Of a stretch of DNA of 64,000 nucleotides, positions 8,871 to 60,590 are shown piece after piece. The first letter of the stretch is position 1. The number at the start of each line of letters is the position of its first letter. This DNA comes from Eutreptiella sp. 'Long Island Sound 2002' (lineage: Eukaryota; Euglenozoa; Euglenophyceae; Eutreptiales; Eutreptiaceae): positions 32,219,897 through 32,283,896 of the forward strand of contig OZ038401.1 of NCBI GenBank assembly GCA_964036045.1, in the 5' to 3' direction. The translations under genes and the position numbers were made by a program. Under the pieces are notes generated by a model. The model did not search any database and was not told the DNA's origin. It was given only the letters and a program-made list of their open reading frames with translations.

Positions 8871-9687
8871 AGTAAGAAAAAGTGCTTTTCCATTGCTTGG
8901 GGACATACTCTAGTTGTATTAGAGATGCACTAAGCATCCATGCATTTTTATCTTAGTATTGGTCCAGCCAAAAGTGGTGAGAACACATTTTGACCTATGG
9001 AACCAAACACCCAATCAGGGTATGGAGTGGACCCCTTAATCCCCTTTCAATCAGAAGTAAAACATCTTTTCCTGAGTTGACTGAGCACTGACATACCTAA
9101 GGTAGAGCCTATGAATTTATCTATGTTTTTCCATGAATACTTATCTGCCCTAGTGGTATGCACCATAGGGGGTTAGGCACCTCTTTTTGAGAGGTCCTGG
9201 GTTCAATTCCTGGTCAGCCTAACTAAGTAGGAAGATCCCAACTGAGTAGGAAGATCCCATGTGACATGGCAGTGACCTCATCGCCACATACCATGCCACC
9301 TCAGCACATATGGGAGCCAAAACAAAGAGTGCACATCTCCTAAGATGGCACTATGGAGAGAGAGTGATCCTGAGGCAGTTTTCTAACTCTTTTCCCAAAA
9401 CATTTCAGCTATCTCTGTGAATATGCATTCATTTGTATCCTGAGTTGCAGTTTCTGTGAATACCTAATCATCTTTCACTGTTTTCACTGCAGCCCTTCAT
9501 GCTTTGATCCTGAATTACCTTCTCTTTGCATACTGTTGGCTTGGGCTATCCTGGATTGAGTTGGCTTTACTGTATTTCAACAAACAAAAGCTTTTCATCA
9601 TCCAAAACCAGCAGCAGGACACCCTACAGCAACAACAAGCAGCAGGAGAAGCAAAAACACAGTGCTGAAAACACTATAAACTTTTCT
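8871..9687 (+). repeat. 5' LTR of element A2
   Basis: 817 bp, the same length as the 3' LTR and apparently identical. It begins AGTAAGAAAAAGTGC and ends AAACTTTTCT, so the ends are AG...CT and not the usual TG...CA. The short inverted match AAAAGT/ACTTTT is at the tips. A duplicated GTAGGAAGATCCCA occurs near 9226-9260. Near the 3' end CACTATAAACT could be a TATA-like or processing element, but its position gives no firm call. Confidence 0.95.
9151..9219 (+). other. tRNA-like segment with A-box and B-box matches inside the A-family LTR
   Basis: The segment reads TAGTGGTATGCACC (A-box-like), then a 5-bp anticodon-type stem ACCTC/GAGGT enclosing the seven-base loop TTTTTGA (9179-9195), then a T-arm with GGTTCAATTCC (B-box consensus) and a five-pair stem including wobble pairs. 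The loop would give a UUU (lysine) anticodon. About ten extra bases separate the D-like and anticodon-like arms, and no acceptor stem is evident, so this is not a functional tRNA. The same segment occurs at 19768-19836 and, on the minus strand, in the A1 LTRs (about 1830-1905 and 45950-46025). Confidence 0.55.
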
Positions 9688-9702
9688 GGTAGCAAGAGGC
9701 AG
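9687..9702 (+). other. Primer binding site of element A2 (initiator tRNA-Met type)
   Basis: TGGTAGCAAGAGGCAG starts at the LTR end. Apart from one extra A it matches the complement of the 3' end of an initiator tRNA-Met ending CCUCUGCUACCA. Element C has the exact 12-base form TGGTAGCAGAGG (48374-48388), which supports the assignment. Confidence 0.7.
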
Positions 9703-25700: not shown

Positions 25701-25756
25701 GACCGGAGACCGGTTGTATGCCCTAACCTAGCCATGGGGTTCTGGGTACCGCTTCA
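22732..25756 (-). repeat. 3' LTR of element B
   Basis: The sense strand starts TGAAGCGGTACCCAG after the purine tract and ends GGAACGCGTCA. Features seen in both LTR copies: a perfect 11-bp stem, 5-base loop hairpin (24874-24900); a near-perfect 13-bp stem hairpin at 25262-25293; a 40-bp direct repeat in tandem (25641-25717); and the 11-mer AAAGCGTTTCA (22844-22854) complementary to the primer site. A 216-codon minus-strand frame (24953-25603) exists in both copies. LTR identity alone explains its preservation, so I do not call it a gene. Confidence 0.93.
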
Positions 25757-25767
25757 CCCCCCTCCTT
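25757..25767 (-). other. Polypurine tract of element B
   Basis: On the minus strand AAGGAGGGGGG directly precedes TGAAGCGG. U (AAGGAGAGGGG before TGACGCG) and V (AAAGAGGGGGG before TGAAGCGG) have nearly the same junction, which links the three elements. Confidence 0.8.
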
Positions 25768-27225: not shown

Positions 27226-30200
27226 TCAGGCACCCCTGGCTGCAATCGCCCGGGTGAGTGCTGCCAAGTCCGAAACGTGGATCTTGGTCTTGTGCTTGCG
27301 GATGTACTCCATGAAGGGTGTATTGACCCGCGGCACGAACGAGGAGACGGGTTCCCAGGTGTCGTGGGACGGCCCATAGCCTCGCCAACGAACCTTGAAC
27401 TCCAGACCTCCGGGTGCCGAGGCCTTCGGACGCTGAGCCAGGATCTTCTCGACTGTATAGTCGTCCTGCTCAGCATAGTCGTCGTCCGAATCGGCCTCAT
27501 GTGCGGCATAGCTCAGGGACACATGCTGGCCACGGAGGTCGGGTTCCCGCACACGGAGTTGACTCTCGTGGCGCTCCCGGAACTGTCCGTGACCCACCTT
27601 GATGCGGTAGGTGTCCTCACCAATCCTGCGGACCACCTCGCCGGGTGTGAACCAGGTTTTGGTGCGCTGGGTGCCCATAGGGCGGGGTCTGATCACCCAC
27701 ACCGGGTCTCCCACCCTGAACTTCTGCGCTGTCGAGCTCGGGGCGGACTTCTGACGCTCAGCATGCTCCTTCTCGAGCTGCTGGCGGATGTCCCGCGCCG
27801 TTTGCTCTTGCCGCGCGAAGAATTCCTTGGCATCCATAGCCATGCCATCACCAGACAAGGGAAGTCCCCTACCCAGGGGGTCCCTGCCGAACAGAATCTG
27901 GTGAGGGGACAAACCGCCCGGAGTGGGGGTGTCATGATGGGCCTTCAGAGCAGGCCACATCTCCTCAAACCAGTTCCGACGTGGATTGGTGATGTGGATC
28001 TTGCGCAGCTTCTCGAACAGCTGCCGTCCAGCCACTTCAGCACGGCCGTTAGACCGGCTGAGATAGGCGACGCTCTTGGCATGACGTATCCCCATGAGGG
28101 AACACATAGCCTTGAACCAGCCACCAGTAAACTGGGGCCCTCGGTCACTGCAAATGGTGCGGGGGATGTCAAAGACGGTCAGCCAATGACGAATCATCAT
28201 GACTGCCACTTCCTTGGCAAGCAACCCCTTTTTGCGTGCCGGAACGGCTACAACGTAGCCGCTGTGGCGGTCCACACAGAGAACCACACAGTCAAAGGTC
28301 TCTTTGCCAATGTGCACTTCGGGCATGGAGAAGACGTCCATGGCCACGCTCTCCATGGGCTGGTCAGGAACCGGGGTCCATTGGGCTTCCCCCTTGACGT
28401 TCCGGTTGTCGGGATTGCAGGCCTGACAGACCGAGCAACCCTTCCTGACCTTCTTGATGGCGGTGTAGAGAACGATATGGTCGATCTCAAACCGACGCTG
28501 CATGTCAAGGGCTTGCTTCTTGACCCCTGGGTGCAGCATGTGGTGGTGCCAAGCTTCACAAAGCTCGAGCACCCGGGACTCCGGTACTAGCAGCTTACCA
28601 TTCCGGTAGAGCTTGCCATCTTCCTCGGTCAGCCCCTTTGGCCACTTCTGCCCGTCGTCAGGGTCGGTCACAGCCCTATACTCGGCCGCAAAGGCCTCAG
28701 ACTTGGCGTAATCGTCGGTGCAGTCGTCCTGGAGGCAAGACTCCGGGAAGAGGTGCTTGTCGGACTCAGCTCCCTCGGGGGCGAGTACACTGACCGCTCT
28801 GCTCACCCTCGACGCGAGGGGGGCATCTGCAGCCATGACGACGAAGCATTTAGCACCCTCCTCCTCCATCAGGCGCTCCATTTCGATGATCCTCTTGGCT
28901 TCAGCGGTCTCAGCCTCATCGCCATGGGCAGAGATATCCGTCATGCCCTTGCTGGCGGGATAGGCCCACCTACTGAGACAGTCCGCCACGGTGTTATCTC
29001 TTCCAGGAATATACACAACCGTGAGGTCGAACTTGGCCAAGGTCTCATGCCATCTTGCCCGTCGGGAGGCGGGACCTGAGGGGGTGTCCACGTGCTCCTT
29101 GTGCCACGACTGCAGACTCTGATGGTCGGTGCAGACGCTGACGGGATGGAGGGCTATGTACCCAGCCCATTTCCTGAGAGCCATGACGATGGCATACGCC
29201 TCCTTTTCACGGGGCGTCCACGTCCGTCTCTGGCCTTCCGCCAGGACTCGGCTCCAGAAGGCCACGGGTACGTGCCTCCCGTCGTCAAGCACTTGCTCCA
29301 ACACAGCGCCAATGGCGTAGTCGGAAGCGTCGGTGCGCAGGACGAACCCTCGGTCGGGATCCACGAGGTGCAGACCCACTGCGGATAGCAGCGCCCGCTT
29401 CATCCCCTCAAAGGCACGGTCGGACTCAGCTGTCCAGACCAGAGCCTTCTTGGACCCCTTCTTGGTCTCCTCTCGGTTGCCCTTGAGCATGGTCGTCATG
29501 GGGGCTGCATACTCGGCATACATTTTGATATACCCCGAGTAGTAGTTGCAGAACCCCAGATACGCCCGTAGCTCAGAGACCGTCTTGGGCTTTTCCCAGT
29601 GCTCAATGGCAGCCACCTTGCCAGGTATGGGCTTTCGCTGCCCGTTTCCGACTACGTGGCCAGCGAAGACCACCTCGCTTACCGCAATGGTGGCCTTGTC
29701 ACTGCTGCCCGTGAGTTTGTGCCGAACCAGAAGGTCCAGCACTCGAGTGACGTCCCTCTCGTGTGCCTCCAGGAGCTCCTCGTAGCTCATACTGGGGTCC
29801 CCGGACGCAATGATCACGTCGTCCACGAAGGGGTCCGCACAGTCGCGCACCGGCTCAAGCAGGTTCTCCAGCATCCGCTGAAAAGCCGCATTGCCGTTGG
29901 TAACGCCCATGGGCATCACCTTCCACTGGAGAGGTCCAAGTGGGGTGCTCATGGCTGTGCAGGCACGGGACTCCTCGGCGAGAGGCATCTGATGATAACC
30001 ATGTTTCAGGTCAATCACCGTGAAGATCCTCCGCCGGTGTTGTTTTTGCAGCATGTCTTCAATGAGGGGCAGCGTATAGCTGTCGTGCTGCGTTTGGGCG
30101 TTCAGGCCGCGGTAGTCGACCACGAGCCGCCACTCGCCGGCAACCTTCTTGGGGACGACGAAGCACGGAGAGGCCCATTCGGGGTGGCACGGCTCGAGCC

Positions 30201-32208
30201 AGCCTCTCTGGATGAAGTCACGGAGGATCTTCTCCATGGCCTCTTTCCTCTCGCCCCTCAGGGCGAACTCCCGGTGCCGATACACACGGGGGTCCTGCTT
30301 CAGTCGTATCTTGGCCTCGCCATACGGTCCACGCACTGGTGGAGGAAACACAGGCTTACCGCTGAAGAAGGTATCACCATACTTCTGCTTCAGCCTGGCC
30401 CTCAATGCCTGAATCTTGGGGCAATCATCGGACTCCGCCTTGGCTTTTCCGGGCACCTGGACCACGGAGCTTACTTGAGGGGTAGCTACTCCGCTCGCTT
30501 TCGGCTCAGGTGGTCTTCCCAGGTAGCCCAAAGGGCCATCTCTGGTCTTGCCTCGGAATAGATCGCCGTAGGTGGGTGGGTTACCCCCGATTGGCTCGTC
30601 CTGGCTGGATAGGTGGTCCAGCACCCTCTGCACGAAGGTGTTCCCGTCATAGGAACCAGAGACGATCGAGTCCACTTCCCACCAGGCTCTGTCCTGGCCC
30701 TTGCCCTCACGCTGGTTTCCCCAGTCGTGAAAGGGCTGATCCATATACCCCTGAACCAGATCCCACTCCTCTTCAGTGAGGGGGTCTTCCGATTCCGATT
30801 CCTCGATGTCAACAGGGGGAACCGCAAAGCATTGCCTCCATGGCTCTGCTATGATGCGGTTGACACAGACGAAGTCCGTGGTGTCGGCCTGATCAAGGCC
30901 CCCATCCACATAGTGGAATTCCGTTGGCCATCTCTGGGGTGGCATGGGGTGTCCCTTAGCGTCCTGATAGACACTCTCTCCAGCCGGTAGGACGACCTTG
31001 TTTAAGGTCATGTTGGTCAATGAGGCTACCCAATGTCGGGTACTTTCCTCCTCGGTGCATCCCATAGGAACAACCAGCACTGCCTTGGAGCGGTCCTTGC
31101 GAATCTTCGCTATCGCTCTTGGAATGTCCCAACGGGGGCAATGGATCCACATCAATCCCTGATGCGGACCCCAGTGCTTCTTCCACGCGGAGTCCTGGGC
31201 GCTCCAGTACTTCTCACAAACCCGAAGATGGGCGGAGGTTCTTGAAGAGAACGCATCCAGGGCCAGATCCGACGCTCCCAGGTCCGCGACCACTCGGTTC
31301 GCCACTTCCGGCATTACGCCGTACTCCTGGTTTGCTGGCCCAGTGGGCTCAGTGTCCAGCGCGGCCACTTCGAGCTGATTGCGTTCGGGGTGGATCCATT
31401 GGCATTCCACATGGTGCTCAAGTGACGAAAGCCACGAGTGTTGGTCGTCCTGGTACAGGGTCATGGAGGCCTGGGCCGGGAGGACGCCGGAGTCCGTGTC
31501 CATCATGAAGTCGTACCCTACGATCATGTCCCAGTCCATCTCGGCCTCGTAGAAGCGACCGTGCAGGAGGATTTCCTTGCCGAGGTCTGGGCGGCTCAGC
31601 TCACGATGGTTCACGAACTGCAGCCCAATGGCCGCTTCCTTCGTGCCACCCACCATGTACTGGCCGTTCGCCACCTTCAGCCTGACAGGTTTCCGACTGT
31701 CGGTCAGACACTCTGGCGGAAGTAGGCCAGCCTTGACCAAGCTGACTTGAGCTCCCGTGTCGACCAACACGTCGAAAACCTTTTCCACTTCCCCGCATAA
31801 GGCACGGACCTTAAGATGCAACTGCCGCTCGCGACCGACACGGCGCACGGCGTGCAAACTCAGGATCTCCGGCCGTTCCAGAAGCTCAACAAGCGACTGG
31901 TGCAGGTCGTGGACAATGGGCTCAGGCTGCCCATCTGCAGCATCCAGCTGCGGTCCGGGTGATCCTCCGATACTCTCGGATAGATCCTGTAGTACATCAA
32001 ACACATTCTTGGTCGCGAAGGACGGACGGGTGCAAGGGTTCGTGCCTTCACTTGCCCTCACCCCGCCTCCGCGACTGGGTGCTGGACCGGGCCTTCCGCC
32101 CGCGGCAGTCCCTTTGGGCTTATCGACTCCCGACTGGGATGGTTCGGCGCTTCCCACGTCACCATCCTGCGACCGCCCTAGCTGGGGCCCTTGGCTGCAG
32201 GGGCTCCG
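27226..32208 (-). CDS. pol: Element B Pol: protease, DIRS/Dam-like domain, RT, RNase H, integrase, chromodomain
   Basis: Open from the gag TAG (32209-32211) to 27226. From the GTG at 32157 it has 1,643 residues. Retropepsin VLVDTGAQVSLV is near residue 130. A methyltransferase-like module follows at about 295-420 with LALDAFSSR, MWIHCPRWD (near 340, where NPPF-type motifs stand in relatives) and AVLVVPMG. RT has LVVDYRGLN, MPMGVTNGNAAFQ and the active site FVDD (near 776). RNase H has LRTDASDYA, REKEAYAI, TDHQSLQ and VADCLSR. The integrase HHCC finger (HHHMLHPG, CSVCQAC) starts near 1206, with D near 1272, D in CSDRGPQF and E in GRAEVAG. The chromodomain near 1566 starts YTVEKILAQR and ends TWEPVSSF. 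All catalytic residues of RT, RNase H and integrase look intact. Confidence 0.93.
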   Translation of the reverse strand, partial: RSPCSQGPQLGRSQDGDVGSAEPSQSGVDKPKGTAAGGRPGPAPSRGGGVRASEGTNPCTRPSFATKNVFDVLQDLSESIGGSPGPQLDAADGQPEPIVHDLHQSLVELLERPEILSLHAVRRVGRERQLHLKVRALCGEVEKVFDVLVDTGAQVSLVKAGLLPPECLTDSRKPVRLKVANGQYMVGGTKEAAIGLQFVNHRELSRPDLGKEILLHGRFYEAEMDWDMIVGYDFMMDTDSGVLPAQASMTLYQDDQHSWLSSLEHHVECQWIHPERNQLEVAALDTEPTGPANQEYGVMPEVANRVVADLGASDLALDAFSSRTSAHLRVCEKYWSAQDSAWKKHWGPHQGLMWIHCPRWDIPRAIAKIRKDRSKAVLVVPMGCTEEESTRHWVASLTNMTLNKVVLPAGESVYQDAKGHPMPPQRWPTEFHYVDGGLDQADTTDFVCVNRIIAEPWRQCFAVPPVDIEESESEDPLTEEEWDLVQGYMDQPFHDWGNQREGKGQDRAWWEVDSIVSGSYDGNTFVQRVLDHLSSQDEPIGGNPPTYGDLFRGKTRDGPLGYLGRPPEPKASGVATPQVSSVVQVPGKAKAESDDCPKIQALRARLKQKYGDTFFSGKPVFPPPVRGPYGEAKIRLKQDPRVYRHREFALRGERKEAMEKILRDFIQRGWLEPCHPEWASPCFVVPKKVAGEWRLVVDYRGLNAQTQHDSYTLPLIEDMLQKQHRRRIFTVIDLKHGYHQMPLAEESRACTAMSTPLGPLQWKVMPMGVTNGNAAFQRMLENLLEPVRDCADPFVDDVIIASGDPSMSYEELLEAHERDVTRVLDLLVRHKLTGSSDKATIAVSEVVFAGHVVGNGQRKPIPGKVAAIEHWEKPKTVSELRAYLGFCNYYSGYIKMYAEYAAPMTTMLKGNREETKKGSKKALVWTAESDRAFEGMKRALLSAVGLHLVDPDRGFVLRTDASDYAIGAVLEQVLDDGRHVPVAFWSRVLAEGQRRTWTPREKEAYAIVMALRKWAGYIALHPVSVCTDHQSLQSWHKEHVDTPSGPASRRARWHETLAKFDLTVVYIPGRDNTVADCLSRWAYPASKGMTDISAHGDEAETAEAKRIIEMERLMEEEGAKCFVVMAADAPLASRVSRAVSVLAPEGAESDKHLFPESCLQDDCTDDYAKSEAFAAEYRAVTDPDDGQKWPKGLTEEDGKLYRNGKLLVPESRVLELCEAWHHHMLHPGVKKQALDMQRRFEIDHIVLYTAIKKVRKGCSVCQACNPDNRNVKGEAQWTPVPDQPMESVAMDVFSMPEVHIGKETFDCVVLCVDRHSGYVVAVPARKKGLLAKEVAVMMIRHWLTVFDIPRTICSDRGPQFTGGWFKAMCSLMGIRHAKSVAYLSRSNGRAEVAGRQLFEKLRKIHITNPRRNWFEEMWPALKAHHDTPTPGGLSPHQILFGRDPLGRGLPLSGDGMAMDAKEFFARQEQTARDIRQQLEKEHAERQKSAPSSTAQKFRVGDPVWVIRPRPMGTQRTKTWFTPGEVVRRIGEDTYRIKVGHGQFRERHESQLRVREPDLRGQHVSLSYAAHEADSDDDYAEQDDYTVEKILAQRPKASAPGGLEFKVRWRGYGPSHDTWEPVSSFVPRVNTPFMEYIRKHKTKIHVSDLAALTRAIAARGA

Positions 32209-32211: not shown

Positions 32212-35200
32212 GGGGGCGTCGGTTGTGGAGGAAGGGGTGTTCTCCTCCGCATCAACCTCGTTGACGCCCTTCTTCCTTCTTTCGCTGCGAGTAGGCTTCT
32301 TGTCCTTGTCCTTGTTCTGGTTTTTCTAGTTGTTCTCCTTGTTCTTGTTGTCCGACCTGGGGACCCAGTTCCTCTTGATCTCCTGGATCTCCTTGGCCAA
32401 CTCAGTCCCCTGCGACACCAGCTTGGAGAGCTCGTCCCTGTCCACCTCCACCTTGGCTTCCCAGATACCCGCGGGCGCACGCTTCTTCGACCCGTGCGCC
32501 TTCTTGTAAGCCTCCGTGTCGGCCTTGTGGACGGGGCATGTTCGGTGGTCATGGTTGAAGCCTCGCTTCCTCCCATAACACACGAAACAGCCCTGAGGGT
32601 GAGCTCGTATGAACTCCCCAAAGGACAGCGGAGGGTCGCCAATGCGGCGAGGGTCCCTCTTCTCCTGCTTCCTCCAACCCTGCTGCAGGGGCTTCCAGTT
32701 TCCCGGGTTTGCTCCCCGCGATCAGGTTCTTGGCCACGAAGGCACAAACGGCCACCTCGGCGGGCTCATCGTCGTCGTCATCGTCGACGAGAGTCTCATC
32801 GCCGCCGGCTCCCGCTGGGTTCGTGGCAGCTTCCCCGCCAGGTCCCACGCCAACGTAGTTGACGTCGCGGTCGCCGGGCCTCAACCCGCGGGTGTGGGGG
32901 AGGTTTCGGTACTCCTTGAGTACTTCCTCGCCAACCCACTCCAGGATCTCGTCGCAGCTCATCCGCGCCGGGATGGCCTGCAGACGGATGGTCTGGCCGC
33001 TCAACTCACACTCGTCAAGGCGCCACATCGCGGTCTTCTCGCGATCGCCCGAGACGGTGATGAGGAGAGCGTTCCGCAGGGGGTGCCGTTTGACATCCCG
33101 GGCCACGTTCTTCCTCGTCCAAGCCACCACGTTGATATGATACTCTTTGGGGAGCATCATCTTGACCGTGTGGTTGGACTTGGCCCTCTTGGATTCCTCC
33201 TTGGTGACCCTCTTGATCCATGCTTCCGGCAGCATGGAGAGCAGGCGAGCCTGCTCGTCACCCCCGTTCCAATCCTCCACGTTGCGGCGGGAGAGGGTGT
33301 ATTTCCCTCGGAAGTCACGCCAGTCCCGTAGGCGGATCTCCCGTCCATCATGCTCAAGCTTGATGGACTTCCACCGCTTGGCAGCCACCTGCGGAGCGAC
33401 CACCCGCTCCTGCTCGTTGAGCCACTTCTTGGCTTCCTTGAGGGTCTTGATTCTCCCCTCCTTGGTTGCCACGAAGTATAGCTCTCCGAGCACTTCCGGC
33501 AGGCGGTACCTGAACCGTCTGAAGACATATCTCTCCGCATCAGCGGGAGGCAGGTCTTCAGTGACGGTCAGCCCCCAATCGTCCAGCTTCTCCAAGAAGC
33601 GGTCGAGGTTGAGGGGGTTGCCATCGTACATGGGGGGCTTGATGTCCTTCAAGTCTTCCCACACGGCGGCATCCGCGGCCTTAGAGACCATGAACGCCGG
33701 CCGCGAGGTCGGCCGAGGTTCCCATCGGCCTCGCCCACGGACTCCCACGGCCGCCACGTCCATCTCCTCCATGGAATCCCTGTGGCTACGCCGCGGTTCC
33801 TCCATGTACGCTGAACCTAGATGTTCACGCCCTACTCCTTCCATGTACGCATCCTCATCACGGCGCCGGCGGCTGCGTTCAGCGGCCTCCTGTCGTACAC
33901 CACGCGGTGGGCTGATGTCGAACTCCTCCAGGTCCGGATCCAGGTCCTCACCTTCACCGACATCCCATTCCACGTCTCCTCTGGGGACCTCATCCCTGAG
34001 TCCACCATAACGTCCACCAGCCATTGGGATTGGCTCCAGGGCTGGTGCGGGGCGCCGGGGGCGTACCGGTGTCCGCGGTGGAGCACGGCGGTTGCGGTAC
34101 TCCGCGCTGAGCCACTCATCACGCCAATCCTCACTGCCACTGCCGGGCGGCCCGTGCTTGTTGCGGCGGCCCGCGCTGTGGTGAGAGGGGGCGGTGAGAG
34201 AGGGGGCACTGGCGCCGGGGCGACTCCTGGGGGCTCCGCCGGGGGCGTGGGGTCTGCCTGGACCTGGTCCGGGTCCCCAACCGTCGTCCGACGAGCCAGA
34301 CTCCAGGGGTGGGTGGTCGCTGCCGACGCTCCCACGGGCCTCCAGCGCGTCCAGCCTCTGCTGCAGGCCGCTGATGACCGTGTTCAGCTGCCTGGTCTCG
34401 GCCCTGGCGATGTCCAGCTCTCTCTGCGCGCGCGCGGCGACCTCGGAGATGCGAGTCATCTCGCCCTTGCCCGTGTCTACCTCGCGCTCGAGGAACTGGA
34501 CCCTCCTGCGGAGGTAGACAATCCACCGCCAGGTGGTATCCGGGTCGCCGTTCCCTGGTGGGTCGTCGGGGTCCCCAGGGGGTCCTCCAGGAGGGCGTCT
34601 GCCGGGTCCGCCCGGTCCAGGGGGTCCTCCCCCGCCCGGTGGTCCGCCTCCAGGGGGTCCACTTGGTGGGCGTCCTCCAGGGGGTCCTGGTGGTCCTCCG
34701 CCAGGGGGTCCCGGTGGGCCTCCGCCGGGTCGCCTCGGTGGGTCCGAGGATGGGCGCTTCTTCGTGATGCCGAAGTCCATGTCGTCATCCTCGTCCATGT
34801 CGCCCCACCTGGGCGTCTCGGTCTCGGAAGACTCCGAGCTCCGGTAGGGAGGAGGGAGATCCTCATCTTCACCTTCCGGTTCCATGGGGACGTCTCCGCC
34901 TCCTCCGCCCGTCCAAGCCACCACTTGGCGATGTCGGCGGCCTCGTTCATCCCCTGTCGCTGGACCGTCGCTGGCGGTGAAGAAGGGGTCACTGTCGTGG
35001 GGGTGTCCGCCCGCTGGCCTCCGTGGCCTCTCGGGGGTCTTCCCCTTGACCTTCCTCCGTCGATGAGCGGTGGGACCACTGCTCCCACTGCTGCCCGTGT
35101 CGGCCTCGTCCAGCGTCATCTTGGAGGAGGCGTCCCCTTCGAAAAGCTTTCGAAGGGTCTCCACTCGTGATCCTCCCGGGGGAGTCTCGCGGCGGAGTTT

Positions 35201-36541
35201 GGCCTCTGCCTCCTCCATTGCGGCGGCGGTGGCTGCGGCAGCCCGCACTTCGGCTTCCTCCCGAGCAGGAGCCGCCTCGGCTTCCCGGGCCTGCTGCAGC
35301 CGCGCCTTCTGAGCTTCCAACGCCGCCAGCTCCGCCTCCGTCTTGGCCTTCTCCTCAGCGACCTTCCGTCGCGCGGCCTCGATGGCGTCCTTCTTGGCGG
35401 CGTCTGCCTGGGCCTTGGCCGTCGCTTCGGCGTGGGCCCTTTCCTCCGCCTCCTTCTTTGCCCTCTCTTGGGCAAGCGCCTCTTCCAGCGCCCTCACCTT
35501 GGCCTCCCTGCAGGCAATGGCCTCCTGCGTCAGGCGGGCTTCCTCGTCGGCTGCCGCCAACTCACCGTTGACCTGGGCAGTCGCTGCCCCATGGGCGGCT
35601 ACGGCCGTGAGTCCGGCCGCAATGGCCGCCACGGTCTGGGCGTGGATGGCCATGCCATGCGCCCACTCCGCAGCCTCCTCCTGGGCGATGCCGACGGCGC
35701 CCTCCACGGCAGCGCTGTGCTGCCTGGCCCGTTGCCGGGCAACCCGAAGGTTGCAGGGCACCCCACAGGCGCGCTCACAGGCGCGCGCCACGTCCCTGTC
35801 GGGAGCGACGCTGCTGCTGGAGCTGGCCTGGTCGGCCGGCATCCTCCCGCGGTGGGCCGACTCCACGTCGCTGCTGGGGCCTGCTGGGGCCTGCTGGGGC
35901 CTCAGGAGCAGCGGACGGGGCTTGGCCTTGGTTTGCTTGGCGACTTGGATGTAGTCGCCAAGGGCCGTGGAGCCGGGGTGGTGAACGCCATTGGCCCGTT
36001 GGGGACTGGGGGCTGGGGTTCCGCCCTTGGCGCCCTGGGCGGCTTCGGCGGCCAGGGACTCCTGGTACTCCCGCCACTTCCGGTCCCGCTTCCTGTCCCC
36101 GGCGGACCGCTTCTCCTTCCCCGGAGACGCGCTGCTGCTGCCCTGCAGCCTGCGCTCGCTCCCCGGTTCCGGGAAGTTCTTTTCGATCATGTCCCACATG
36201 GAGACATTGATCGAGGCGCCCGACGGGTAGGCGTTGGGGTCCTCGTCCTCCTCAATCCTGTCGGGGCGCAGCCCTTCGCCGGGCCTGTCCGGCCGGGTCC
36301 AGGTCCTCCAGCGCCTCTGCTGGAAGCGGGAGGCGAACCCTTCTGCCCGCAGCCAGTCCTCCACGGCCTGCAGGCGGTCGGGGGCGATGTCCGTGCGGAG
36401 CCCGAAGCTCCGGGGCATGCCGCCTTCGCACTGGGGGTGGCTGTGGCGGTAGTGCTGGTCCCATACCAACCCACGCAGTAGGTGCGCTGCATGGGGGTGG
36501 GGCCGCGGCCACGTCCTGCCCGCTTCTTGCCAGTTTACCAT
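32209..36541 (-). CDS. gag: Element B Gag, very long, with a frame change and an internal TAG before the pol stop
   Basis: From the ATG at 36541, 1,330 codons run to a stop at 32549, but the zinc-knuckle region is read in the +1 frame. The switch lies near 32690-32715. After it the frame gives CFVCYGRKRGFNHDHRTC (Cys/His knuckle), a Lys-rich helix, a TAG at 32326-32328 in a Lys/Asn tail, and the final TAG at 32209-32211. The main part has an alanine/glutamate-rich coiled coil (about residues 330-460), a Gly/Pro-rich collagen-like stretch (about 610-690), a second short coiled coil, and a capsid-like region near 970-1150 (PPMYDGNPLNLDRFLEKLDDW). One extra base plus one nonsense change would explain the breaks. 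Programmed recoding is the alternative. Confidence 0.75.
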
Positions 36542-36953
36542 GGCAGCGGGGGGCGTAGTTAGTCTTGAGGTCCTTGGTGGTCACTCGTTGCGCTCAACGA
36601 ACTGGTGGTGGTTGTTGAGGCAGGTGCTGCAGCACTGGGCTGGGAGTGCGGCTGGTGCTGGTCAGCCGGTGGTTGTGGAGGTGGTTGACGCGGCCTTGCT
36701 GGTCGGCCGATGGGACTCGCTGATGCAGGAGTCCTGGTCAGTCCACTTCCTTCACGGTCGCGGCGCGGTCAGGGCGATGCTCTGGACGGCGCTGCTGGCT
36801 CCGTGACGAACTCGGCGCTGTCGCCCGGTGGCGCTGCGAGCCGCTGCGCTGCGCTGCGAGCTGCTGCGCTGCGCTGCGAGCTGCGAGCTGCGCCGCGCTG
36901 CTCGGGGTTGGTGGCCCCGAGTGGCACGCGAGGGCTAGGTAACCCCGCGGCGG
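36542..36953 (-). other. Element B 5' leader
   Basis: About 410 bases between the primer site and the gag ATG. It includes a short tandem of GCTGCGCTGCGAGCT units (about 36838-36898) able to form GC-rich structure. No gene is seen. Confidence 0.6.
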
Positions 36954-36964
36954 TGAAACGCTTT
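36954..36964 (-). other. Self-complementary primer binding site of element B
   Basis: Directly after the sense LTR end (GCGTCA) the sense strand reads AAAGCGTTTCA. This is the exact reverse complement of TGAAACGCTTT in the LTR (plus 37077-37087; also 22844-22854), 112 bases before the LTR end. It lacks the TGG start of a tRNA-type site. Tf1/sushi elements prime reverse transcription with an 11-nt 5' transcript end paired to such a site. Confidence 0.75.
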
Positions 36965-39900
36965 TGACGCGTTCCCGTGGGGGGCCGGCCACGGGACGCT
37001 GCGGTGACACGCACAGGTGAGCAGGCAGGCAAGGCACTACGCTCACAAGGGCATCAATACGCTCGTGTCATGTGACAAAGCGTTTCAGGATCCTTGCCAC
37101 TCTGCAACAAGGGAACGAAAGTATGTACAGCAACACATCAGGATATGTACACATGGGGTTAAGACTGGACTGGGGTAAGGGCATCACAGGACAATGGACA
37201 GTCAGTCCTAACTCGTATCCCAATCCCAGGTCCGACCCTCTCAGTGGATGGTGGGGGCGGGGGCTCAAACACAACCCATGCCCTGCTCAGTCCGGACCCT
37301 GAAACCCTGCCCATAACGGAGGTGTTCCGCCCAGCCACAAGCGAGTTCCTGGGAACCAAGGGGCTCCGAGGCCAATCGACAATGGCTCCCTATGCTCCCT
37401 TAACGGCAGGTCCCAACTCCTCTCTGAGCCAGAGATATGGCCCCGCCATTATCCCCTAGGAGTTGGTAGCTGAAAATGGGCTGTTTCAGCCCAAACTGGA
37501 ATTAGCTCAAAAATCTCCAAAATTGACCTCTCGTCCGGACCCGCCAGAGGTAGGGACGAGGTACCTGACCCCATGCCCTTCGAGTACGAACTCCCTGGAG
37601 CCCTCACCCAACCTGGTTCCCTCTGAGGTCCCGGCATCAGGGCAACACGGATTCATCAAGTGGGGTCATGATGCCAAAATCACCAAAAATGGCGTCATTC
37701 CCACGCGTGGCTCGCCCGGCCAGGGCAAGGCCAATGGCCCACAGGTTAGGAGGCAGGACCTAGGACTACTATCTGAGTGTACAACTTGAAATTAGGTCCG
37801 GGCTCCCTGTGGGCATGGAGAAATGGGGCCGCCAATTGACCACACGGAAGGGGGAAATTGGGGTCCCAAAATGGGGTCATTTTGGCTGCTCGAAATGAGC
37901 CAAAATTCGGGGTGCTCCCAATAGTATATCTCCACGCCGGCTTGGAGATCGGATTCGCCATTCCATACGCGATCCACCGAGAGTCCAACGAAGACTCCCA
38001 TGCCCTTGGCTCCCAAAGATCTCTATGCCACTTGGCGTGGTGTCAATCCCAATTGGGTCCACGAATGCCAAAATGGCAAAATTGCCCACACTCACTTTGG
38101 GCTAGCGCCTTAACGAAGGTTGCTCCGCTTCGCCCACCTGGTGTGTGAACCATGGGGACCAATATGCATAACACCCACGTCATATATGGTCCATTGGTCC
38201 ATGCGTCCGGCGTGCACGGGTAGGCTGAACATAGTGCACGACGGGCAGCAAAAGTGGAAAATTGCTCAAAATGGCCAAAAATGCGCACACTCATGGTTGG
38301 GGCAAATGAGGCACATGCCCGACTTGGACCGGAGTGTGCCATAGGATTGGTATCAAGTCATATGTGTCCAACATATCTTTTGGGCGTCGCCTAACTCCTC
38401 CGGTTTTGGGAATGGCAGGGTCGCCAAGTGAGCCCATGATTACGGATAGTCCCAAATTGCCAACATGGCGGCCACGGTGTGCCAAGCCCAAGAGGAGTTA
38501 TTCGCTGGGTCCAAGATATGTTGGGCACCGAAGTATGTACCCTCATAACATACTTGGGTCATGATGTCAATTGAGCGCAACGTTGAGATACACGGTCGCC
38601 ACTTGACATCATGACGGGCCAAAAACGGCAAAATTGGCACAAAGACACACAAAAGTGCATTGAAAGGTGCACAATTATATTATAGTATCTTCGGCTTGGA
38701 TCGTGCAATCAACTAATCCTTCTAAACACAATGACTTGACACCAATGACCTTCGATTCCACATATGTGCTCCACTTGGGGCGCCTTGAAAGGTTAAGAGC
38801 GCTACTTCCCAAGTGGGCACATGAAAATATGGAAAATTGCAAAACACACACCTTGCTCCCAACGCATCGCTTTGGGATCGCCACACAAGCTTCCCTTCAC
38901 GCAGGTTAGGCTTGCAATTGATTGTAGGGAGTATGGAGAAGGGGCTTGCACAATATGAGGTCCATTGGCGGGCTTGGCTTCGAGCGATGGACCCGCCAAA
39001 TGGGCACGCAACACAACACAAGGCACATACTCCATATTGCCCAAAAAGGTAGCTCCCCCCACGATATGTCATGCCCCTCCAAGGGCATAACTTTGTGTCA
39101 ATCGCTCATAGGAACTCAAGGAGAGTTCCTATGCAACACCAACACTCGCGCGCTACACTCGAAAGTTATCTTAACGCACGCAATATCATGGCCATAGAGT
39201 TACAACGCAAACTCTACCCTCTTGACCATGATCCATTACACTAGCGCGCACGTGTGGAGACGCAAGGCATATGATGCTTCCCAAATTACGTCGGGAGTAT
39301 TGTGAATACATCCCACGTTTCCTTATTGTCATTCCTCGCAAGCAACATGAGATATGACCTTCGCAAGTGGCCTCACGAATCAACTTTGTTTTGCCCATAT
39401 CTTTAAGACAAATGGAGGGCAGGATAAAAGGAAAGTTGATTCGTGCATAGGGAAGCACGTAGGTCCACTCGAAAGAGGTCAAATCAAGTGCGGGGATGTC
39501 GAAGTCGAAAATCCGATTTCGACATCCTGAAAAATTCGGATTAAGGTTGCGAGTGTAGAATGTGAAAATTGCGGATGCATCAACGCAATTCCTGAAGACT
39601 TTAGAGCCTTTGTCACGGATAGCGTTAAAATTTCCATTATAAACAGTTAAACTGGCGGTTACGGTAAAGTCGCGATCCAACCGCCAGCAGTCAAAACAGT
39701 GAGTATCAGAACGGAAGCGTAAAAACTGACGGAAACAATATGAAAATAAAACCCTGTTGATTCCTGATATTCTGATATATAAATCTCCGCTGGCGGTGCA
39801 TCGGTTGCCGATGCGGGGCTTTACGGCACGGAACACGCTCCCGCCGGGCTCGCACCGGGCGTCAACGGGCGCCTTCCGTACATGGGGTTAGTGGACCGGA

Positions 39901-39989
39901 GACCGGTCTTCCCTTCCGTACATGGGGTTAGTGGACCAGAGACCGGTTGTATGCCCTAACCTAGCCATGGGGTTCTGGGTACCGCTTCA
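36965..39989 (-). repeat. 5' LTR of element B
   Basis: 3,025 bp, matching 22732-25756 with a few substitutions (for example near 36994, 37195 and 37324). The right end GCTTCA is followed by the second GTAG target copy and A1 gag sequence. Confidence 0.93.
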
Positions 39990-40486
39990 GTAGTTGCCTC
40001 AGGAAACGCAGTGGTAGGTGGGCCCAAACCATAGGCAGGGTAGGTAGGCATACCAGTAAAGCCTGTGCCCTCTGCCATAGGCGGGTTTATTATGGGTGTG
40101 GATGTTGCAGCGGCTGGGTTTGGAATTGGGAGTGTGGTGGTTATAGGAGAGGGTGATGCGTGGAGGCCAGAAGCGCTTGGTGCGCCTTGGAAGGTAGGAT
40201 CATTCGTCAGGTCTTGCCCTTGGTCTTCTCCTTCGTCTGCTATGCTTTCTCCGGCATCCTTCTCGCTCTTCCTCTTTCTCTTCACAGGATGAGTGACCAC
40301 CTCCTCGACGGAGAGGGCCCGGAAGGCCGACTGCAGTCCTTCCAACGAATCCTCCGGCACGTCCACTGGCCCATGTAAGGGCTCCGAAGGTACAGCGCTA
40401 GGTCCAGGTCCAGGTTCACCAGGTGCTGGCCTTGCTGGTGCCGCAGGCGCTGTCTTCACGTCGGTGTCCTCTTTCTTTGTGTCCAT
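39990..40486 (-). pseudogene. gag: Element A1 gag, N-terminal part
   Basis: Starts at ATG 40486 with MDTKKEDTDV and follows A2 gag (EPLHGP, EDSLEGLQSAF, VKRKRK, GAPSASGL, GTGFTGMP) to EATT, where B interrupts. The frame continues at 22731. The open frame seen past the junction is element B LTR sequence and not gag. Confidence 0.9.
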
Positions 40487-40575
40487 CTTCGTTCGCCCTT
40501 CTGCTTATATATGACTGATCTCGGCGCACTGGTTGTACGGCACGGGGTACGCAGAGACAGTCTGCCTCTTGCTAC
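40487..40575 (-). other. Element A1 leader and primer site remnant
   Basis: Aligns with the A2 leader (9688-9785) in reverse complement, with diverged stretches. The primer site complement (CTGCCTCTTGCTAC, 40562-40575) ends exactly where element V is inserted, so V cut A1 between its LTR and its primer site. Confidence 0.75.
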
Positions 40576-41500
40576 TGAAGCGGTATGGGGTGCCTCACCC
40601 ATACCCGCTGCCCAGCCTGTGGCGCTCTTCGCATCAGGAATTTTCCTGAGCTGATTCCCAGCCTTATGGCATCCCGATTTCCGTGGGATTTCTGTAAAAT
40701 ACCCCAGAAATCGTCATTTTTCGTCATTTTGGGCTGGCGACGACGTTCGTCGCCTGCGCGACGCAGCCCCAGATCGAAGTTTTATTTCACGATTTCTGAA
40801 GATTTGAATCAATTTTATTATTGATTTATCGTTTTTAGAAATATAGGAATGTAACGTGACTTTTTTTGCGCCGTTCCGCGAAGGTCAATTTTTGCGAAAA
40901 CAGTCACGTTCACGATTTTTTTAAAAAATCCTGAGCCGATCCCAGGAATCAGCCAGGCGCCCATGGTGTGGCCCAACAGTGGCCCTCTTCATATATAGTT
41001 TGAATTGGGACAGAAACGCGTCGTGTCGGCTACGCGTCGTGTCGGCTACGCGACGCGTTGGGGGGAGACACGCGAAATGAGTGTTTTTGGCTCAAAAATC
41101 ACTATATTTCACTGTTTTTCGCCTAAAAACCACTGTTTGGCCCAGTTTGGGCAGGATCTCAGTGGAGATCTTGATGGCGACGACTCGTAGCCGTCAGATT
41201 TTCTGATGGCGGCGACGCCGCCGCCTTCATTTCGTCCTCTCTTCTAAGCTTTTTTATAGTATAGAAGTGATACATATACATATTACTTGTCTACATGTTT
41301 ATATTGTCTACATATACCTTCATCTCTTTGCCTAGGACGCCAGATTGTGTCATGGCCGAGGCAAGGATCACAGAATTCTTTCGAGAAACCCAAACTGATG
41401 GAAGATCAGCAAGAAAACAAGAGGAAGTCTTGGATTTCATGGGATTGGGGTCGTGCATGCCAAGGGAAGCTTGGAGGTTGCCCTCCCCCCAACCTCTTCA
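40576..41500 (+). repeat. 5' LTR of element V
   Basis: TG...CA ends. It contains CG-rich palindromes (for example GCGACGACGTTCGTCGC near 40736) and a pyrimidine tract ending TTTGCCTAG (41327-41335). That tract is followed by GACGCCAGATTGTGTCATG and an open frame starting MAEARITEFF. The candidate self-primer CAGAATTCTTT lies at 41371-41381. Confidence 0.9.
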
Positions 41501-41540
41501 AAAGAAATCTGCCGACGCCAAGGCCACCAAGGCGGTGTGA
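41351..41540 (+). CDS. Short unknown frame in element V (LTR into internal region)
   Basis: An ATG at 41351 opens a frame beginning MAEARITEFFRETQTDGRSA that crosses into the internal region and stops at 41540. In the 3' LTR the same frame starts at 43127 and runs out into A1 sequence. The upstream 19 bases are nearly the same as those before the frame in element U, but the proteins are unrelated. Coding status is doubtful because the candidate primer sequence lies inside it. Confidence 0.25.
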
Positions 41541-42367
41541 CGGCCTGCGGACGGCGACGATGCCTAGACTGCAGGCGAATTGTCGACGACGTCGACATCT
41601 GCAGGAGCTAAGGTCCAGGGCATCAACATGATGAAGGAGGAATTCCTTGACTCCTACAATGGGTATCACCTTGGCTTCCCCATGGACCCTATGGAGCCCC
41701 AAAGTCTATGCCAGGCTCTGGGCGACGACCACAGCGACGACGAGGCCATCTGCGAACCGCCACAAGCAGGCGCGTTAATTCGTCGCCTTGGGCTGGTTGG
41801 CCCTCCGGAGGTCGCCACCCTAAACAGGCGCGGGTCGCCTTGGGTAGGAAATGACCCTAAATCCCCCAAATCAGGCGCGTTAATTCGTCGCCTTGGGTTG
41901 GGAATCGACCCTAAACAGGCACGAGGAATTCGTCGCCTTGGGCAGGAAATGGCCCTAAATTCAGGCGCGAGGAATTCGTTGCCTTGGGTTTGACCCTAAA
42001 TAATTTTTTTCCGCATTTGAATTTATTCAATTATTATGTTTCCATGCCCATGGAGAAAAAGGGCCAATATGTGCGCCTCAGCGCCATCAGTCAGGTCGGA
42101 AGGACCTGCAGCGCCCCTGGTTTGGTCACCAGAGGCTAAAGGGAGTGCCAGGGAATGGTGTGGTCGCCTGGGGGGCAATTGCCATATGAATATATCAAAA
42201 AAAAAAAGAGACCTACATGTGAGTGGCATGTAAATTACTCACGAAGCCCCCCCCCCCCCCCCCACTGTCCTGCTGAATCAGTTTTGAAACCAGGGCAGTG
42301 CAGGGGTCAGAGCGCCTCCTTGGCCTTGCCTTCCTTTGGATATAGGCAAGGCTTCTAAAGAGGGGGG
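41501..42367 (+). other. Element V internal region, self-primer site and tandem repeats
   Basis: Starts AAAGAAATCTG, which pairs with CAGAATTCTTT in the LTR at 10 of 11 positions. It carries diverged repeats built on GGCGCGTTAATTCGTCGCC and CGTCGCCTTGGG (about 41768-41985), an 18-base C run (42247-42264) and no retroelement gene. A 137-codon frame (41580-41993) spans the repeats and resembles nothing known to me. Confidence 0.7.
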
Positions 42368-43276
42368 TGAAGCGGTATGGGGTGCCTCACCCATACCCGC
42401 TGCCCAGCCTGTGGCGCTCTTCGCATCAGGAATTTTCCTGAGCTGACTCCCAGCCTTATGGCATCCCGATTTCTGTGGGATTTCTGTAAAATACCCCAGA
42501 AATCGTCATTTTTCGTCATTTTGGGCTGGCGACGACGTTCGTCGCCTGCGCGACGCAGCCCCAGATCGAAGTTTTATTTCTTGATTTCTGAAGATTTTAA
42601 TCAATTTTATTATTGATTTATCGTTTTTAGAAATATAGGAATGTAACGTGACCTTTTTTGCGGTGTTCCGCGAAGGTCAATTTTTGCGACAACAGTCATG
42701 TTCACGATTTTTTTAAAAAATCCTGAGGCGATTCCAGGAATCAGCCAGGCGCCCATGGTGTGGCCCAACAGTGGCCCTCCTCATATATAGTTTGAATTGG
42801 GACAGAAACGCATCCTGTCGGCTACGCGACGCGTTGGGGGGAGACACGCGAAATGAGTGTTTTTGGCTCAAAAATCACTATATTTCACTGTTTTTCGCCC
42901 AAAAACCACTGTTTGGCCCAGTTTGGGCAGGATCTCAGTGGAGATCCTGATGGCGACGACTCGTAGCCGTCAGATTTTCTGATGGCGGCGACGCCGCCGC
43001 CTTCATTTCGTCCTCTCTTCTAAGCTATTTTATAGTATAGAAGTGATACATATACATATTACTTGTCTACATGTTTATATTGTCTACATATACCTTCATC
43101 TCTTTGCCTAGGACGCCAGATTGTGTCATGGCCGAGGCAAGGATCACAGAATTCTTTGGAGAAACCCAAACTGATGGAAGATCAGCAAGAAAACAAGAGG
43201 AAGTCTTGGATTTCATGGGATTGGGGTCGTGCATGCCAAGGGAAGCTTGGAGGTTGCCCTCCCCCCAACCTCTTCA
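42368..43276 (+). repeat. 3' LTR of element V
   Basis: 909 bp, close to the 5' LTR apart from scattered substitutions and one missing 16-bp unit. Followed by the CTAC duplicate and the A1 LTR end. Confidence 0.9.
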
Positions 43277-43280
43277 CTAC

Positions 43281-43315
43281 GAGAAAGTTTTATAGTGATT
43301 TCAACACTGTGTTTG
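43281..43315 (-). repeat. Element A1 5' LTR, short end fragment between V and U
   Basis: 35 bases (plus-strand AGAAAGTTTTATAGTGATTT and on to TGTGTTTG) match the 3' end of the A-family LTR. The rest of the same LTR lies beyond element U at 45543-46303. The plus-strand text is the same as 1396-1430. Confidence 0.88.
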
Positions 43316-44056
43316 TGACGCAAAATCGTGGGCTGTCCACGATTGCGCAAGAACAGGCCACTCAATGGGTGTTTCCTGGGATGGATGAATGTACCCTAGG
43401 TACTCCCTAGACCTTTTGGAGCCTGCGGACAGGCAGCGCGAACGCTGCCGCGAAGCGCCAGATTGTCGCAGGCGATAATTGCCAGGTCAGGCTTGCATTG
43501 CAGGTTCGGCATGAAAGACCGCCAAAAGGCAGTGATTTTACAATAAATTTTTATTGCAGATCATTAATTTGAATTATGACGGGTTAATCCAAGGGTGTAG
43601 CATAAGTTACGGGCATGCGCGGGATCTGTGCTTCACAGAGACCAAACACTCTGCCCTTTCTGTGCACAGGACACCAGACTGTGTCATGTATGGGACCATG
43701 CAAGGGTCCTACGATGATTTAAGCCAAGCTATGGACATGGAGAACCCTGTGGGAACGACGGACACCGAAGTGATTTCAGTGCTCCTCGTGTGTCGCTCCG
43801 TGCCTAGAAGGATGACCAAGAGTGTGGCTGGGGCGCTACTGGAGGCGCTTGCACGTCCGGAGAAAAGAGGATTTTCCGAGTTTGACAAATCTCAAGAGAT
43901 TTTGCAAAAAATCAGGGATTTGGACAAAAACTTTGCAGCAACTTCAAGGGCCGTAGCAACGGAACTGGTGAAGCGAAGCAAAGTGTCAAACCACAGAATC
44001 CTCACAATATCTGGGCAATAAGGAGCCAAAAGCCTGGCACCCCACCTACCGCTTCA
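43316..44056 (+). repeat. 5' LTR of element U
   Basis: TG...CA ends. It contains TTTCTGTGCACAG followed by GACACCAGACTGTGTCATG (about 43669-43689), then GCAAGGGTCC and the 11-mer TACGATGATTT (43710-43720), which is complementary to the primer site. Differences from the 3' LTR are scattered and mostly change amino acids in the overlapping frame. Confidence 0.9.
43687..44021 (+). CDS. Unknown frame inside the element U LTR
   Basis: Opens at ATG 43687 (or 43554 if read from upstream) and ends IS GQ stop at 44021. The same frame is at 45173-45507. The predicted protein is mostly helical (SQEILQKIRDLDKNF near the end), with no match known to me. Substitutions between the two LTR copies often alter the protein, so there is little sign of selection. 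It could be a captured host fragment. Confidence 0.3.
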
Positions 44057-44376
44057 AAATCATCGTACCGTGCAGCAGGTCCCATGTAGCGTGACATGAG
44101 TAGCACTGCGGCAGAGACGCCCAGCGATCCGCAGTGCAGCGCCCGAGGACAATAACTGCGTCGCGGCTGTATGGAGGTGCGTTGCTGCGCCGGCTTGCGC
44201 AGCACCCCTCCACCCCATGGGTCTACGCGACACCAGACCCAGCCGTCGCTCGTGAAGATCGTCAGCGATTCTCCCCGTGTGACGCGGCTGTTCTGCGCCC
44301 ACTGTAGTAATGCTGGCCTCGGAAGCACCATGGGAGCCCTCGCTGCAGACGGAGGCAGCCTGCAGCATCGAGGCAA
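44002..44376 (-). pseudogene. Possible Tc1/mariner-like transposase fragment captured antisense in element U
   Basis: A 124-codon minus-strand frame includes RGESLTIFTSDGWVWCRVDP. This loosely resembles the strand after the first catalytic Asp in Tc1/mariner transposases (…F.SDGR.WVWR.P). No complete catalytic triad is visible, and the end of the frame runs into LTR sequence. The resemblance is weak and could be chance. Confidence 0.2.
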
Positions 44377-44801
44377 AAGAGACCCTCGCTGTACAACGTC
44401 GAGTACAGCATCGTGGCAGATTCCGTGCGCTTGGACGCGCCAAGCGCATTAAGGCATGGTGTGCGAAGAGGTTTGGTACGTAAATACCAGTCAGGGAGCG
44501 CCGCTGACGCTCTTCAGTGGCCAGTCCAGTGAGACCAGCGTGGGACCCCAGCGCGCTGTGTCGTTTTTGTTTACTGGGCCGGCATTAATTTTATTATTAA
44601 TCTGCCATGTCTCTGGTGGTGGAGCCCAAGCATTTAGATGTCTGCGCCACTACAATCAGTGGTCCAGCGTTATTGTTGGGCACCCACCCTTTTACTGCTG
44701 GCGCGCAGAGGCGTCAGCGCGTGTAAGCTAAGCACAGGAAACACCCACGCGTGGGGCTTGCAGAGCCGCCATCGGCCTAGCAAGCCTTTTAAGGAGAGGG
44801 G
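44057..44801 (+). other. Element U internal region with self-primer site
   Basis: Begins AAATCATCGTA (44057-44067), the exact complement of TACGATGATTT at 43710-43720. The remainder is non-coding in the sense direction and ends in the purine tract. Confidence 0.75.
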
Positions 44802-45542
44802 TGACGCGAAATCGTGGGCTGTCCACGATTGCGCAAGAACAGGCCACTCAATGGGTGTTTCCTGGGATGGATGAATGTACCCTAGGTACTCCCTAGACCT
44901 TTTGGAGCCTGCGGACAGGCAGCGCGAACGCTGCCGCGAAGCGCCAGATTGTCGCAGGCGATAATTGCCAGGTCAGGCTTGCATTGCAGGTTTGGCCTGA
45001 AAGACAGCCAAAAGGCAGTGATTTTACAATAAATTTTTATTGCAGATCATTAATTTTAATTATGACGGGTTCATCCAAGGGTGTAGCATGAGTTACGGGC
45101 ATGCGTGGGATCTGTGCTTCACAGAGACCAAACACTCTGCCCTTTCTGTGCACAGGACACCAGACTGTGTCATGTATGGGACCATGCAAGGGTCCTACGA
45201 TGATTTAAGCCAAGCTATGGACATGGAGAAACCTGTGGGAACGACGGACACCGAAGTGATTTCAGTGCTCCTCGTGTGTCGCTCCGTGCCTAGAAGGATG
45301 ACCAAGAGTGTGGCTGTGGCGCTACTGGAGGCGCTTGCACGTCTGGAGAAAAGAGGATTTTCCGAGTTTGACAAATCTCAAGAGATTTTGCAAAAAATCA
45401 GGGATTTGGACAAAAACTTTGCAGGAACTTCAAGGGCCGTAGCAACGGAACTGGTGAAGCGAAGCAAAGCGTCAAACCACAGATTCCTCACAATATCTGG
45501 GCAATAAGGAGCCAAAAGCCTGGCACCCCACCTACCGCTTCA
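44802..45542 (+). repeat. 3' LTR of element U
   Basis: 741 bp, the same length as the 5' LTR with scattered substitutions. A1 LTR sequence resumes immediately after its CA end. Confidence 0.9.
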
Positions 45543-51579: not shown

Positions 51580-51905
51580 ACTCCCCCCCCGTTTTGTACT
51601 GAAAAACCCCCCGCTTTGTACTAAAAAAACCCCGTTTTGTACTAAAAAACCCCCCGTTTTGTACTAAAAGACCCCCCAAATTGTCCTGGAAAAAACCCCC
51701 CCTTTGTGCCAAAAAAACCCCTTTTTGTTCAAAAAAACCCCTCCGTTTTGTACTAAAAAAACCCCCGTTTTGTACTAGAAAACCCCCCGTTTTGTACTAA
51801 AAAAAACCCCCCTTTTGTACTAAAAAAACCCACCGTTTTGTACTAAAAAAATCCCCCCCTTTTGTACTAAAAAAAACCCCCTTTTGTACGAAAAAAACCC
51901 CCTTT
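51580..51905. repeat. Minisatellite of GTACTAAAA plus C runs
   Basis: About a dozen imperfect units of 20-24 bases, each with a core TTTTGTACTAAAAAA and a run of C. The core is nearly self-complementary through GTAC. Related arrays lie at 60260-60590 and, in the opposite orientation, at 60535-60590 and 61145-61240. Confidence 0.85.
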
Positions 51906-60259: not shown

Positions 60260-60590
60260 GCTCACATTGCCCCGAAAATACCCCGAAATGTACTAAAAAG
60301 CCCCCCAAAACGTACTACAAAACCCCCGGAAATGTACTAAAAGATCCCCTGAAATGCACAAAACCCCCCCCAAAAAATGTACTAAAACACCCCCCTAAAT
60401 GTACTAAAAAACCCCCCTAAATGTACTAAAAAAACACCACAAAATGTACTAAACCCCCCCCCCCCGAAATGTACTAAAAAACCCCCCGAAATGTACTAAA
60501 AAACGCCCCGCCCAAACCCCCCCAATTGTACTAAAACCCCCCGGGGGGTTTTTTAGTATAATTGGGGGGTTTTTTTAGTACCCCCCCTCC
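60260..60590. repeat. GTACTAAAA minisatellite with an inverted end
   Basis: About ten units of C-run plus GAAATGTACTAAAA (60280-60535), then the reverse orientation GGGGGTTTTTTAGTA (60540-60580). The head-to-head arrangement gives a long inverted repeat. Same core as 51580-51905. Confidence 0.85.

Follow-up and report, generated by a model that had tools for sequence, protein, structure and literature searches.

Candidate Tf1-type self-primers in a chromovirus and two polymerase-less long terminal repeat elements of one genome

Self-priming has been described for the Tf1/sushi retrotransposons and predicted for Tcn1 of moss and club-moss and for plant TAR copia elements (PMC6317226), and it has been proposed for Tj1 (PMC4600332). 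Tf1 uses as primer the 11 bases at the 5′ end of its RNA, which is cut between bases 11 and 12 (PMC7175516), and the fission yeast leader requires three duplexes (PMC10085805). In the available text of the sources, the club-moss Tcn1 paper found no evidence for either priming mode (PMC2864245), and a paper on bivalve terminal-repeat retrotransposons in miniature (TRIMs) proposes no clear priming mechanism (PMC6934838). Here we analyse a 64-kb stretch of contig OZ038401.1 from Eutreptiella sp. (the window) together with the 2.28-Gb host genome, and describe three of its long terminal repeat (LTR) retrotransposons, the large element B and the small, polymerase-less elements U and V, in which an 11-mer of the LTR is complementary to the bases just behind the 5′ LTR.

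Three 11-nt pairs behind one tag

In B and U, the LTR 11-mer is exactly complementary to the putative primer-binding site (PBS) right after the 5′ LTR, and in V the two stretches pair at 10 of 11 positions (Table 1); a sequence-only reading of the window had picked out these pairs, and it proved right to the base. Pairing in B and U stops beyond 11 bases on both sides, with windows shifted by one base matching at 10 of 11, and the 3′ LTRs of all three elements contain the same 11-mers. When each LTR was resampled 3000 times from a Markov model, an exact match arose at a frequency of 0.0007 for B and in 0/3000 resamples for U. As a counter-check, we asked how many inner 11-mers exactly match the element's own LTR (5/11186 in B, 0/845 in V and 3/722 in U); such matches thus do arise from other causes, but rarely. 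The PBS of one element matched the LTR of another at 8 of 11 positions at most. Among the 121 sites in the window where TCA is followed by AA, an exact reverse complement lay 60–600 nt upstream at those of U and B only, and a reversed-only control gave 0.

The 11-mers share a fixed position behind a tag, GCAAGGRTC (GCAAGGATC or GCAAGGGTC), which occurs six times on both strands of the window, always at LTRs of B, U or V, and ends exactly one base before each of the six 11-mers. Just upstream of the tag, U and V have 30 nt in common at 83% (E 0.001), yet their 11-mers and PBSs differ; in the same comparison B showed no such upstream stretch, only the tag. Genome pattern searches for the tag, an LTR end and AAA at set distances gave 68, 87 and 9 matches, whose letters assign them to the B, V or U type or to variants of these, and the reversed control of each search gave 0. 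The 11-mers thus hold equivalent positions but have different letters, and each differs together with its PBS. These different 11-mers at equivalent sites are the strongest evidence that the pairing, rather than the sequence, is kept, which agrees with what had been proposed from the letters. The tag also points to a transcript start at the 11-mer, as a putative core promoter element one base away resembles an initiator.

The PBSs of B, U and V start with AAA directly behind the LTR, and CCG follows each of them; none of the three elements has a TGG start of the tRNA type. The A family of Ty3-type elements in the same window served as an internal negative control: the bases at the A1 LTR end start with TGG (Table 1), AAGGRTC is absent from the two A LTRs examined, and a self-primer was rejected, the best self match being 7–8 of 11. 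Priming by a tRNA or half-tRNA, with an incidental LTR complement, would be the usual mode for Ty3 elements and would fit the TGG start in the A family. A PBS that starts with AAA, however, cannot pair with the CCA end of a tRNA (internal tRNA stretches were not searched), and three different PBSs each match their own LTR, so that we consider tRNA priming of B, U and V very unlikely.

In the leaders of B, V and U, the predicted RNA fold is closed by the 11-bp helix, most pairs of which have a probability of at least 0.8; in six of seven further loci this level holds for the first seven pairs or more, except for a terminal pair that drops to 0.72. The duplex looked at was the central one of the three-duplex 'pretzel' leader, and it is predicted. 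Such a helix could instead serve packaging, dimerisation or the control of translation as a long-range RNA structure; the strength of the predicted fold would suit this, as would the open reading frame (ORF) right behind the 11-mer in U. Against it, in all three families the helix is 11 nt long and its PBS side adjoins the LTR end, as priming needs, and the bases after these LTRs have no tRNA-type start, which makes a role other than priming quite unlikely.

We therefore think that B, U and V very probably start reverse transcription by Tf1-type self-priming, because the length of 11 nt recurs in three families with the PBS directly adjoining the LTR and no TGG start, because B has a chromodomain polymerase and the pairs are kept in most copies read, and because one motif precedes different sequences at equivalent sites and the predicted folds close with the helix. 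That the three elements share this mechanism, as the sequence-only reading had suggested, is supported by those features that are testable in sequence. Transcription would begin at the 11-mer, one base past GCAAGGRTC, and the first 11 nt of the RNA would pair back onto the 11 bases directly after the 5′ LTR; cleavage behind base 11 by the element's RNase H would then release a 3′ end from which minus-strand cDNA is primed. The enzymes are encoded by B, and U and V, which have no pol, would most likely borrow them from B or a sister element.

Conservation and change across the host genome

Copies were found by similarity to the stretch that spans the repeat region, the unique 5′ region and the PBS (R-U5-PBS), with 202 candidates for U, 2034 for V and 1239 for B, of which 40 each were scored. 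Pairs could be read at 38/40 scored places for U (30 + 8 loci), 35/40 for V (30 + 5) and 20/39 other places for B, the U and V sets including the window's own copy. Exact pairs of 11/11 were present at 36/38 U, 28/35 V and 17/20 B loci, and the remaining loci pair at 10/11, except that one B locus reaches 9. Among the 30 loci of U and the 30 of V, the pairs lie at 60 distinct positions. These counts are of loci rather than of independent insertions, as one tandem array holds 5 of the 30 V loci and another 4 of the 30 U loci, and the places are 95–100% alike to the query, so that the conservation is partly due to descent. The mismatch of V in the window is a change in the PBS, which recurs in one other V locus (L068).

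Changes within the families were followed in 20 ascertained loci out of 68 matches, namely all ten of V type and ten of B type with an unusual 11-mer; their PBS position 4 is not G, which limits the score to 10/11. Neither these loci nor the nine chosen for C or T at 11-mer position 4, all of which were read, enter the plain counts above. In a B-like subfamily (L105, L107 and L108), the 11-mer starts with TAGAA and the PBS ends with CGTTCTA, so that relative to B both partners have changed at positions 2 and 3; L108 carries further unmatched changes, and L106 shows the match at position 2 but lacks it at position 3. In a V-like subfamily (L111–L113), the 11-mer is CAGAATCCTTT and the PBS ends with GATTCTG, with position 7 changed on both sides relative to V. 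Unusual 11-mers are present in 15 of the 20 loci, six of which are matched at the subfamily-defining sites and L106 at one of two.

Several points weigh against self-priming. V alone is weak and near chance, with at least 10/11 pairing in 0.038 of its Markov resamples, and the predicted leader of L105 prefers another fold, with a pair probability of about 0.2. The matched changes may represent as few as two events, L112 and L113 being near-identical. Where PBS position 4 is changed, the partner, 11-mer position 8, is altered in 0/68 loci and is still C; where 11-mer position 4 is C or T, 0/9 loci are compensated, including L130 and L133, in which the LTR is followed by bases other than the family's and which may be 3′ or solo LTRs. 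Of the 15 unusual 11-mers, eight (those of L109, L110 and L119–L124) have no match where the base has changed, although L123 could form G-T. The target-site duplication of Tf1 is 5 bp, compared with 4 bp here.

The compensatory changes that had been expected among family members thus appear in two subfamilies and fail in the three sets of unmatched loci just described. Likewise, the two 11-mers vary independently in single copies, an outcome that the sequence-only reading had named as contrary to its proposal, whereas both sides have changed together between the families and in the two subfamilies. Because of these joint changes, we read the uncompensated ones as probable decay of dead single copies; the within-family record can also be read as loose coupling. 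A more radical explanation is chance, or the shared descent of one functionless inverted repeat. The near-chance pairing of V, the sharing of the pair by descent among recent copies and the many uncompensated single-copy changes would all be expected from it. It would, however, have to account for 11-mers that differ between all three elements, match exactly in B and U and yet occupy one position relative to a shared motif; equal pairing was not found at other sites, and we regard this explanation as extremely unlikely.

A possible helper and the layout of the window

B is a 17.3-kb element on the minus strand with 3.0-kb LTRs, an ORF in the position of gag and a pol ORF (Table 1). RVT_1, RNase H and Chromo scored above the Pfam cut-off in its pol product, and the integrase core (rve) reached 29.3 bits, below the cut-off of 32.6, at E 1e-6. 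With reverse transcriptase, RNase H and an integrase followed by a C-terminal chromodomain, B has the make-up of a Ty3/gypsy chromovirus; nearly all of the protein-database matches listed for it are unnamed proteins.

V (2.7 kb, LTR pair around 867 nt) and U (2.2 kb, LTR pair around 744 nt) have no pol ORF in their inner parts, where the longest ORF with an ATG codes for 129 amino acids in U and 121 in V. The repeat match of U begins at 43315, and its G was taken as the last base of the target-site duplication TTTG, the right-side copy of which carries one extra T. With an LTR pair, a putative PBS, a polypurine tract, a target-site duplication and no pol, U and V can be classed from sequence as TRIM-like non-autonomous LTR elements. 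The LTR of U also contains a 96-amino-acid ORF (43731..44021, +) downstream of the presumed start, which is open in most copies read and gave 12 database matches, all unnamed ENA proteins. Elsewhere in the genome, LTR and inner part of V form a head-to-tail array of ten stretches with ∼1765-nt spacing (C4:77492224-77508469), and a similar array of four was found for U (C17:38284803-38289794).

Table 1. Positions of element features in the window
Feature	Position	Strand	Remarks
B 5′ LTR	36965..39989	-	TGAAGC...GCGTCA, 3.0 kb, self-BLAST
B 3′ LTR	22732..25756	-	self-BLAST
B primer-binding site AAAGCGTTTCA	36954..36964	-	first base after LTR, CCG next
B self-primer 11-mer TGAAACGCTTT	37077..37087	-	putative first 11 nt of transcript
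Motif GCAAGGATC, B 5′ LTR	37089..37097	-	one base before 11-mer; putative core promoter/initiator
Motif and 11-mer, B 3′ LTR	22844..22864	-	motif 22864-22856, 11-mer 22854-22844
B pol ORF	27226..32208	-	Pfam: reverse transcriptase, RNase H, integrase core, chromodomain
B gag-position ORF	32549..36580	-	without Pfam match
B polypurine tract AAGGAGGGGGG	25757..25767	-	precedes 3′ LTR
B target-site duplication CTAC	39990..39993	-	other copy 22728-22731
V 5′ LTR	40576..41500	+	TGAAGC...CTTCA, self-BLAST
V 3′ LTR	42368..43276	+	self-BLAST
Motif GCAAGGATC before V 11-mer	41361..41369	+	second copy 43137-43145
V self-primer 11-mer CAGAATTCTTT	41371..41381	+	3′ LTR copy 43147-43157
V primer-binding site AAAGAAATCTG	41501..41511	+	one mismatch in window copy
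V polypurine tract AAAGAGGGGGG	42357..42367	+	
V target-site duplication CTAC	40572..40575	+	other copy 43277-43280
U 5′ LTR	43316..44056	+	TGACGC...GCTTCA
U 3′ LTR	44802..45542	+	self-BLAST
Motif GCAAGGGTC before U 11-mer	43700..43708	+	second copy 45186-45194
U self-primer 11-mer TACGATGATTT	43710..43720	+	3′ LTR copy 45196-45206
U primer-binding site AAATCATCGTA	44057..44067	+	CCG next
U polypurine tract AAGGAGAGGGG	44791..44801	+	
A1 bases at LTR end TGGTAGCAAGAGGC (control)	9687..9700	+	TGG start, tRNA type
A1/A2 matching stretches	10263-12724 vs 22732-20302; 12717-17254 vs 8870-4331		

The polypurine tract, the LTR tips and the target-site duplication are the parts read by RNase H and integrase. 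Because B, U and V have in common the kind of polypurine tract, the LTR tips (TGAAGC or TGACGC at the start; GCGTCA, GCTTCA or TCTTCA at the end) and a 4-bp target duplication, B or a sister element is probably the helper of U and V, with a somewhat better than even chance. Sister families with a pol of their own, such as P0018, have ∼60–70% identity to B in the reverse transcriptase. Across the polypurine tract and the LTR start, V is 96% identical to B over 24 nt; a search for wider homology between B and either U or V at the DNA level gave nothing beyond this stretch. The tips of B (TGAAGC...GCGTCA) and U (TGACGC...GCTTCA) look swapped, as if inverted. A more tentative and rather doubtful possibility is that the 11-mer acts as a private key, such that enzymes and start signal are shared while each RNA primes itself alone. 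Strand transfer would then stay within a family, the key would change in step with its PBS, and U and V would be parasites of B that use its start signal, polypurine tract and LTR tips with separate keys.

The order of the repeats suggests that an antisense Ty3-type element, A2, was later hit by four insertions, A1, B, V and U. The LTR pairs differ at 43/3024 (B), 14/742 (U) and 18/909 (V) aligned positions, and because they differ so little the insertions of B, U and V look fairly recent. V occupies the site of the A2 PBS, and U lies close to where the 5′ LTR of A2 ends; two candidate self-priming elements thus lie inside the start region of a tRNA-type element. Self-comparison of A1 and A2 gave a mosaic of divergence, with an identity of ∼89% in the gag part and 95% in the pol part. 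Arrays of a ∼22-nt unit rich in AAAAACCCCCC and TGTACT are present at 51563-51906 and 60271-60513. The spliced-leader motif of dinoflagellates, which may not be that of the host, had 0 matches in the window.

Comparison with described systems

Relatives outside the host genome were sought among viral contigs, where there were none; three relatives in other genome contigs, at 29–30% identity (L082–L084), were not used. The literature searched, which leaves out most subscription papers, contained no paper on self-priming retrotransposons of dinoflagellates, and for TRIMs and self-priming together it yielded the bivalve paper alone (PMC6934838).

If the proposed mechanism is correct, the range of self-priming would grow to take in a large eukaryote genome and miniature elements that lack pol, and a single genome would hold the device in three different sequences, with a tRNA-type family alongside as a control. 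From the fixed upstream tag, transcript starts can be predicted to the base; the tag also offers a route to further self-priming families from sequence alone, and the changes in the subfamilies make the joint change of primer and site testable by counting.

Like TRIMs, U and V consist of two LTRs around a short pol-less inner part (U 744 nt, V 867 nt). Typical TRIM LTRs are shorter than those of U and V (0.74–0.93 kb), and U and V differ further in having their own putative self-primer. Tcn1 and TAR resemble the elements described here in that self-priming is predicted for them, but they belong to plants, and pol-less partners are not reported there in the available part of the source (PMC6317226). 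The closest likeness in priming features, rather than by tree, is to the Tf1/sushi elements (Tf1, Tf2, Tj1 and Tosmo), which, as far as the available text describes them, also combine 11 nt at the RNA 5′ end (putative in B, U and V) complementary to an LTR-adjoining PBS with an LTR ending in CA and, as in B, a chromodomain pol (PMC10085805, PMC7175516); B, U and V show the Tf1/sushi hallmark of ∼11 nt complementary to a PBS abutting the 5′ LTR. They differ from this group in the 3-kb LTR and 17-kb length of B, the 4-bp target-site duplication, the common GCAAGGRTC tag and the pol-less partners with their own primer pairs. The mechanism itself is known; pol-less self-priming partners, and a fixed tag followed by different keys, are new within the literature searched.

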